Positions 44,741 to 45,783 of a stretch of DNA of 64,000 bases are shown here, piece by piece. Within the stretch, counting starts at the first letter, position 1. Every line of letters begins with the position of its first letter. The position numbers were made by a program, and so were the translations under genes. The DNA lies in assembly GCF_014644555.1 (NCBI RefSeq), contig NZ_BMKX01000001.1, positions 806,001 to 870,000 of the forward strand, given 5' to 3'. The notes beneath the pieces were generated by a model. It searched no databases. It was not told the origin of the DNA and was given only the letters and a program-made list of their open reading frames with translations. The DNA is from Glutamicibacter ardleyensis (lineage in GTDB: Bacteria > Actinomycetota > Actinomycetes > Actinomycetales > Micrococcaceae).

Positions 44741-45154
44741 TGTGGATATATCAGTCCCAAAGCCAACACTAGGTCTCTTATCTATAGCCGTAAACTCGGT
44801 TATCCACAAGATCTGTGGATAAGCATGCTCTCGCTGTGGATGACCCTGTGCGTGACTTGGGGAGAAGCTTGTGGATTACCACACTTAAACTCATTGAACT
44901 ATGAGTTGACTAGTATAAATATATTTTGACGCCTGTGGATAGAAAGTTTATTTCTTTGTAGAGACAATCTTCTCAACTTACGTTATCCACAGGATAAAGT
45001 CCGGAATTACGGTGTATTTCGCCTTATGATGGAACTTATCCACGCACTGTCCACATGCATGTGGACAGTTTTGTGGATAATCAACAGTCTTAGAAGTCGG
45101 TAGTCACAGCGACTATAAGCTACTGAGTCGTAACTTTGGGCGAAGTAATCCACA
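44741..45154. other. DnaA-box cluster (origin-like or DnaA-titration region)
   Basis: About twelve 9-mers close to TTATCCACA. Exact copies: 44800-44808 and 44983-44991 (plus), 44814-44822 and 45072-45080 (minus). Near copies: 44741 (minus), 44835 (minus), 44870 (minus), 44934 (minus), 45036 (plus), 45047 (plus), 45060 (minus), 45146 (plus). The pair at 45046-45069 forms a 24-bp perfect palindrome with arms ACTGTCCACATG. An AT-rich stretch, 44882-44930, lies inside the cluster. Density and AT-rich core are as in oriC, but dnaA/dnaN, which usually flank actinobacterial oriC, are not here. It may be oriC, a DnaA-titration site, or DnaA control of dnaB. Confidence 0.8.
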
Positions 45155-45234
45155 ATTAAGCTCAAAGTCGCCCGCGTCGACTTGTGACGCACGGAGTCCC
45201 GGCATCAACTCGAGACCTACTGCTTAAACAGCAT

Positions 45235-45272
45235 CGCGCCGCCGGCCTCTTGATCAAGAGGCCGGCGGCGCG
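45235..45272. terminator. Palindromic terminator after the flavin reductase gene
   Basis: A 38-bp perfect palindrome (arm CGCGCCGCCGGCCTCTTGA), flanked by AAAAA on one side. It ends the flavin reductase transcript and shields the DnaA-box region. Confidence 0.85.
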
Positions 45273-45282
45273 AAAAAGCTAT

Positions 45283-45783
45283 TTAGACGAATTCCGGGAC
45301 CGGTAACGAGTGAAATCGTGAATCATGGAAGATCGATGGAAGATGCTCGGCCAGCTTATGGCCATGAACTTCTAGCAGTACCACCCAGTGATCTCCCGCT
45401 TCTACCTCACTATAAATTGAGGTGTCGAGCCATAGTGTGGAGTCCTCAATGAACAATGAACCATCGGCGCTACTGTGTGTATTAATACCGAGGAACCGAT
45501 CGCCCTTCTTCGATGCGATCTGCCCGCAGACTCCTTCATTGCGCTCACTGAGCACTGAGACACCTATGCGGTTAGCACCCCGCAACTTTGGCCAGGTATT
45601 TGAGGTTTTCTGCACCGCAAACATCACTAACGCGGGTTCCAGTGAGACCCCCACGGTGAACGAGGAGGCAACAATTCCCGTCTTCTCACCGTCGATATCG
45701 GCGCAAAGCGCGGCAACTCCGGATGGGTGCTGCGCGAAAACTTTGCGTAACGTCAGCGCGTCAAGCTCTTGATTCAAAGACAT
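45283..45783 (-). CDS. Flavin reductase family protein
   Basis: 166-residue FMN-binding split-barrel protein: LRKVFAQHPSGVAALCA at the start, TGIVASSFTVGVSLEPALVMFAVQKTSNTWPKL (in part) as the flavin-binding core, IGVSVLSERNEGVCGQIA, and the C-terminal GDHWVVLLEV with His. Such proteins supply reduced flavin to two-component monooxygenases, or are stand-alone NAD(P)H:flavin reductases. No monooxygenase partner is adjacent. AAAGGAAG lies upstream of the ATG. Confidence 0.92.
   Translation of the reverse strand: MSLNQELDALTLRKVFAQHPSGVAALCADIDGEKTGIVASSFTVGVSLEPALVMFAVQKTSNTWPKLRGANRIGVSVLSERNEGVCGQIASKKGDRFLGINTHSSADGSLFIEDSTLWLDTSIYSEVEAGDHWVVLLEVHGHKLAEHLPSIFHDSRFHSLPVPEFV

Follow-up and report, generated by a model that had tools for sequence, protein, structure and literature searches.

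What role does a dense cluster of DnaA boxes play directly upstream of dnaB in Glutamicibacter ardleyensis? An earlier note on this DNA offered three readings: the replication origin itself, a site that titrates or reactivates DnaA, or control of dnaB by DnaA. We analysed the cluster (cluster A) in the window of 64,000 nucleotides that contains it (contig C1:806001-870000 of a 3.94 Mb assembly in 28 contigs), together with the wider genome and the dnaB loci of related bacteria. Window coordinates are collected in Table 1.

Table 1. Features in and around cluster A (window positions)
Feature	Position	Strand	Basis
Cluster A, 15 DnaA-box-like 9-mers	44741-45154	.	Mismatch scan and simulation
Box ATATCCACA, shortly after the inferred start (about +11 to +19)	44741-44749	-	
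Predicted dnaB promoter: -35 TTTACG (44794-44789), 17 nt, -10 TAGTGT (44771-44766)	44766-44794	-	Inferred from conservation
Promoter-proximal head-to-head exact pair, 5-nt spacer	44800-44808, 44814-44822	+, -	Mismatch scan
DnaA box, end 42 bp upstream of predicted -10	44814-44822	-	Spacing and alignments
Box pair 64 bp apart (44870, 44934) around AT-rich core with GTCA element	44870-44942	.	
Perfect 24-bp palindrome, two CTGTCCACA boxes	45046-45069	.	
dnaB, replicative helicase, 456 aa	43279-44649	-	PF00772, PF03796
Flavin reductase-like gene, upstream of cluster	45283-45783	-	PF01613
Terminator-like hairpin, 18-bp stem, after flavin reductase gene	45234-45273	-	1 found against a shuffle mean of 0.5

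Cluster A is exceptionally dense

In cluster A a mismatch scan of the window found 15 nine-mers, in both orientations, that differ from TTATCCACA at no more than two positions: 4 exact boxes, 6 with one mismatch and 5 with two. The earlier note had counted twelve; its four exact boxes and both orientations stand. At a limit of one mismatch the cluster contains 10 boxes in 414 bp, compared with a maximum of 3 (mean maximum 1.39) when the window was simulated 200 times under a first-order Markov model, and with 2 in the next-densest 414 bp elsewhere in the window, scanned in 50-bp steps. The exceptional density that had been claimed is therefore borne out, as are an AT-rich core at 44882-44930 (73% AT, a value reached by about 0.05% of the window's 49-mers), the palindrome of two head-to-head boxes, and dnaB and a flavin reductase gene as neighbours, both recognized by their Pfam domains. 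The relatives' counterpart of the palindrome often resembles TTATCCACA-N4-TGTGGATAA. The DnaB protein shares 100% identity with its counterpart in Arthrobacter sp. MYb229 and 92-95% with those of Glutamicibacter-named records.

Exact boxes number 42 genome-wide, with 4 in cluster A, 2 in dnaA-dnaN and 5 in a second group, cluster B; the remainder are scattered over the genome apart from two isolated pairs on contigs C3 and C8. These pairs were considered as further clusters and dropped, because 414 bp there contain at most 2 boxes with up to one mismatch. A one-mismatch scan of the genome returned 276 + 297 matches, against 198 + 178 for a reversed-pattern control. The search for clusters composed only of one-mismatch boxes covered the 250 kb read on C1, in which the best 414-bp window after cluster A, cluster B and the two oriC parts holds 2 boxes.

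Cluster A lies apart from the origin

Cluster A is not located at the origin. The dnaA gene (PF00308) is found at about C1:905495-907048, some 54 kb from the cluster on the same contig, in the order parB-parA-rsmG-jag-yidC-yidD-dnaA-dnaN-recF-gyrB-gyrA (genes other than dnaA identified by eye). We presume that rnpA and rpmH lie between yidD and dnaA, their sizes being below the ORF cut-off used here. Boxes with at most one mismatch flank dnaA on both sides, 5 and 4 in each side's densest 414 bp. Over the 250 kb read, cumulative GC skew reaches its minimum at 909,292, 58 kb from cluster A, and is still dropping at the cluster. The absence of dnaA and dnaN noted earlier thus holds within the window and fails on the contig. 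The suggestion that the cluster is the origin itself is not supported: a dnaA-dnaN locus with its own boxes lies at about C1:905.5-907.5 kb, and the two landmarks proposed for comparison, dnaA and the skew switch, both lie about 54-58 kb from the cluster. Cluster A was rejected as oriC, as neither the skew switch nor dnaA/dnaN adjoins it.

A similar separation recurs in related genomes. In all five relatives with matched contigs, dnaB is divergent from dnaA and lies about 55, 57, 63, 70 or 78 kb from it; three more genomes give about 53, 82 and 91 kb, values that rest on assumed contig identity. Cluster A is therefore a dense group of strong boxes outside oriC and near it, as a titration cluster would be.

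A second remote cluster

Cluster B, with 5 exact boxes and 5 that carry one mismatch, lies at about C1:923688-924150 (L016:7688-8150), some 18 kb beyond the dnaA start. The genes before it are ppiA (PF00160) and a rhomboid gene (PF01694), and those after it are lysE, crgA, sortase, pabA and kinase genes (crgA and the kinases named by eye). Counting this genome, 28 of 29 readable Micrococcaceae loci have at least two boxes at this place. We take the mycobacterial gene order at Rv0010c-Rv0011c to be ppiA, a membrane gene, the DnaA site, crgA, pabA/trpG and pknB, and by this order cluster B appears to correspond to the Rv0010c-Rv0011c site. In M. tuberculosis dnaB is presumably on the other side of dnaA; here it is on the upstream side.

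Spacings within cluster B recur by eye, with 13 bp between direct boxes and an opposed pair some 120-130 bp further on, an arrangement that appears twice in some loci. In two Arthrobacter-type genomes a fourth box group, all in the same orientation, lies some 9 kb upstream of dnaA (L201:3971-4360 in G138; G140:C2:897232-897607).

The cluster is conserved upstream of dnaB in the Micrococcaceae

This comparison covered the 80 dnaB loci listed out of 587 relatives. Within 1,500 bp upstream of dnaB, 79 of the 80 loci have at least three boxes with up to one mismatch, so the scan of related genomes that the earlier note had proposed does find the cluster there. In every one of the 80 the densest 450-bp window is upstream of dnaB, the rest of each locus (3.6-5.9 kb) containing 0-3 boxes. 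The only locus with fewer than three is L031, which has 2; it is a duplicated dnaB in G. creatinolyticus LGCM 259 whose upstream sequence lacks about 200 bp, and with them the predicted promoter and the boxes close to it. Micrococcaceae members short of boxes upstream of dnaB are L151, with none at up to one mismatch, and L135, with 2. Two records named Sporosarcina (L084) and Curtobacterium (L089) have a Micrococcaceae-like dnaB and the same box cluster, and these names are probably wrong.

The flavin reductase gene is outside the conserved unit, as the upstream neighbour of dnaB varies among relatives; in Kocuria (L094) and Rothia (L098) it is rplI, named by eye. In a nine-row alignment of the genus, from which the duplicate row L031 was excluded, identity is 0.89 in box columns against 0.65 between boxes. 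Both boxes of the promoter-proximal pair have at most one mismatch in all nine rows, and the box immediately after the inferred start has exactly one in all nine. A two-mismatch box at 44858-44866, TTCTCCCCA, has one or two mismatches in each of the nine rows, as if maintained as weak.

The box pair around the AT-rich gap with its GTCA element is 63-65 bp apart, start to start, in 61 of the 80 loci (derived from computed values of 66-68, which counted other ends), and in 60 of these 61 the gap exceeds the AT content of the 900 bp upstream of dnaB. The conserved non-box element in the gap is CTAGTCAA-like here and GTTTCCGCAGGTCAG-like in Arthrobacter-type loci; the expression used to find it is loose, matching 68 of 80 upstream regions and also 132 times in 342 kb downstream. 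Some of its versions resemble the MtrA motif GTCACAGCG as quoted in an excerpt of PMC4285127. An outward promoter in the gap was considered and dropped because, by eye, it is not maintained across relatives.

In the Micrococcaceae, boxes keep a spacing to a predicted dnaB promoter

From alignments that read TTTACG-N17-TAGTGT-like in the genus and TTGGTG-N17-TAACGT-like in many Arthrobacter-type loci, we infer a dnaB promoter between the gene and the exact box pair. Its -35 element is weak, and a consensus promoter scan did not list it. That scan listed two other sites, which is at chance level (shuffles 1.0); one, TCCACA-16-TATACT at 44939-44912, lies in the AT-rich core in the dnaB direction.

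In 63 of 136 loci a box in the dnaB direction has its end 41-43 bp upstream of a TANYGT hexamer; these comprise 62 of the 85 family-set loci and 1 of 51 outside the family (L107). The box in this place here would lie at about -63 to -55, assuming a start 7 nt after the -10 element. Other box-hexamer distances are mostly near 21, 31, 53 or 63 bp, and 109 of 113 distances deviate by no more than 1.6 bp from a whole number of 10.5-bp turns; in eight entries, which have a poor -35, the box is at 21 bp. The phasing of TANYGT ranks first when 241 hexamer patterns of this form are compared, with the qualification that the pattern was picked after the family alignments had been viewed and that the loci are related, which makes p-values too small. 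Within the Micrococcaceae, then, the alignments show a kept spacing between boxes and predicted promoter.

Of the 51 loci beyond the family, 11 have a box at a distance of 8-69 bp upstream of TANYGT (14 distances, R 0.78). Their phasing ranks third of 122 patterns, with two arbitrary ones scoring higher, and is no more than suggestive. With a narrower -10 pattern, no spacing peak emerged in the loci outside the Micrococcaceae. The 42-bp spacing is mainly a Micrococcaceae feature.

Boxes upstream of dnaB outside the Micrococcaceae

The 450 bp upstream of dnaB in 25 loci of the order contain 42 boxes, against 1.3 expected and a maximum of 6 in 100 simulations, and 37 of the 42 are in the dnaB direction. 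At least one box is present in 19 of these loci and none in 6. By comparison, 26,250 bp lying further upstream contain 5 boxes, and 70,297 bp of coding or downstream sequence contain 3. In 26 class and phylum loci the same interval holds 20 boxes against 0.9 expected, with at least one box in 12 and none in 14. Boxes upstream of dnaB outside the Micrococcaceae are thus fewer, yet their number is far above chance. G. ardleyensis has what characterizes the actinobacterial site, DnaA boxes immediately upstream of dnaB.

A literature search aimed at cluster A returned one source that, in the excerpts obtained, treats DnaA upstream of dnaB (PMC7738170). As described there, in M. tuberculosis the region upstream of dnaB is bound by DnaA in vitro, and a DnaA variant with weaker binding at this place under-expresses dnaB. 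The five top mycobacterial DnaA sites are oriC, rpmH-dnaA, Rv0010c-Rv0011c, Rv3843c-RVnc0040 and the region upstream of dnaB (Rv0057 region); homologues of all five, the dnaB region included, were found in M. smegmatis by ChIP-seq. The same excerpts state that DnaA binds upstream of dnaB in Caulobacter, the same regulatory link as that proposed here. Like cluster A, the mycobacterial site precedes the replicative helicase gene, and the two appear to correspond; they differ in that cluster A has 10 strong boxes in about 410 bp, whereas a genome of the same class (L108) has 2. Neither the oriC-like enlargement in the Micrococcaceae nor the promoter spacing is shown in the portions of the literature found, PMC7738170 included.

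A probable DnaA-responsive dnaB promoter and alternative explanations

We consider it reasonably probable that cluster A is an extra-origin, DnaA-responsive dnaB promoter region that in the Micrococcaceae has been enlarged and also titrates DnaA. Control of dnaB by DnaA is the best supported of the three readings in the earlier note, given the conserved promoter-box geometry in the Micrococcaceae and the mycobacterial DnaA binding upstream of dnaB described in the excerpts of PMC7738170. We infer DnaA binding, activation, later repression and titration at cluster A as follows. The ancestral job of the cluster would be dnaB control: DnaA, probably ATP-DnaA, would cooperatively occupy boxes upstream of the predicted sigma-70-type promoter and, bound on one helix face, would activate it, so that helicase supply would track initiator activity. 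The box just downstream of the start, once filled, may shut the promoter off. With 3-10 strong boxes now present in nearly all the Micrococcaceae loci seen, the enlarged region should in addition retain a share of the DnaA in the cell. In five relatives its distance from dnaA is 55-78 kb, so it should be duplicated early in a round and would then lower free DnaA. Titration or reactivation may be an extra role beside dnaB control.

Cluster A could instead be a pure titration site of the datA or DnaA-box-cluster type, delaying re-initiation, with the adjacency of dnaB incidental. Ten strong boxes exceed what a promoter should require and about equal the number in the densest 414 bp of both dnaA sides combined, and cluster B, near dnaA, has no replication gene directly beside it. 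There are precedents in what the excerpted reviews describe: B. subtilis has several oriC-proximal DnaA-binding clusters outside oriC, like cluster A, with titration as their reported role (known here from the review's description; PMC5295017), and the S. coelicolor DnaA-box 'trap' is an actinobacterial extra-origin cluster with a datA-like effect (PMC5742627); both restrain initiation. This explanation is nevertheless unlikely, although it deserves to be taken seriously, because the boxes remain with dnaB while the upstream neighbour changes, keep their spacing to the predicted promoter in the Micrococcaceae and, outside the family, are found upstream of dnaB even where they are few.

DnaA might also repress dnaB at cluster A and not activate it. 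The box that follows the inferred start closely, kept in all nine genus rows, would suit repression, as would the promoter-proximal pair, one box of which adjoins the -35 element. We nonetheless judge this improbable: the most widely kept box is the one well upstream, at about -63 to -55, and in M. tuberculosis weaker DnaA binding accompanies lower dnaB expression (excerpts of PMC7738170).

The conserved box geometry, and the extra GTCA element in the AT-rich gap, which could bind an accessory protein, would fit a DARS-like site that converts ADP-DnaA to ATP-DnaA. In E. coli, datA and DARS1/2 are likewise DnaA-box clusters away from oriC. As far as the excerpts of the review go, datA and DARS2 work with IHF and DARS2 also with Fis, and none is presented there as a dnaB promoter (PMC5742627). 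A DARS-like function leaves the link to the dnaB promoter unexplained, and we regard it as very unlikely. A replication origin, or a second active one with boxes around an AT-rich unwinding region, is scarcely credible despite the box density and the fixed-length AT-rich gap between two boxes, given the distant skew minimum with skew still falling at cluster A, the canonical dnaA-dnaN locus with its own boxes, and the dnaA-dnaB distance in five relatives.

Implications

Judged by its sequence, cluster A seems to belong to a type of DnaA site already known, here enlarged and with a conserved architecture; most likely it is a dnaB promoter that responds to DnaA and also titrates it. Its predicted promoter geometry is directly testable in soil bacteria that are harmless, and would connect initiator level with helicase supply. 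The comparison also sets two mycobacterial DnaA sites, that upstream of dnaB and that at Rv0010c-Rv0011c, in a wider actinobacterial frame; the latter is described in the excerpts of PMC7738170 as having no obvious counterpart in other species, yet cluster B occupies the matching gene-order position.

More tentatively, and with somewhat more doubt than conviction, we suggest that Actinobacteria share ancestral DnaA stations, namely oriC, a post-rhomboid site beyond gyrA and the dnaB promoter. In the Micrococcaceae the two remote stations would be as box-rich as oriC or richer, so that a single device at dnaB might both meter free DnaA and fire helicase synthesis. If true, this would be a direct feed-forward from initiator to helicase with a built-in brake. 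Cluster A looks like a switch that would couple helicase supply, and probably the level of free DnaA too, to the cell cycle.
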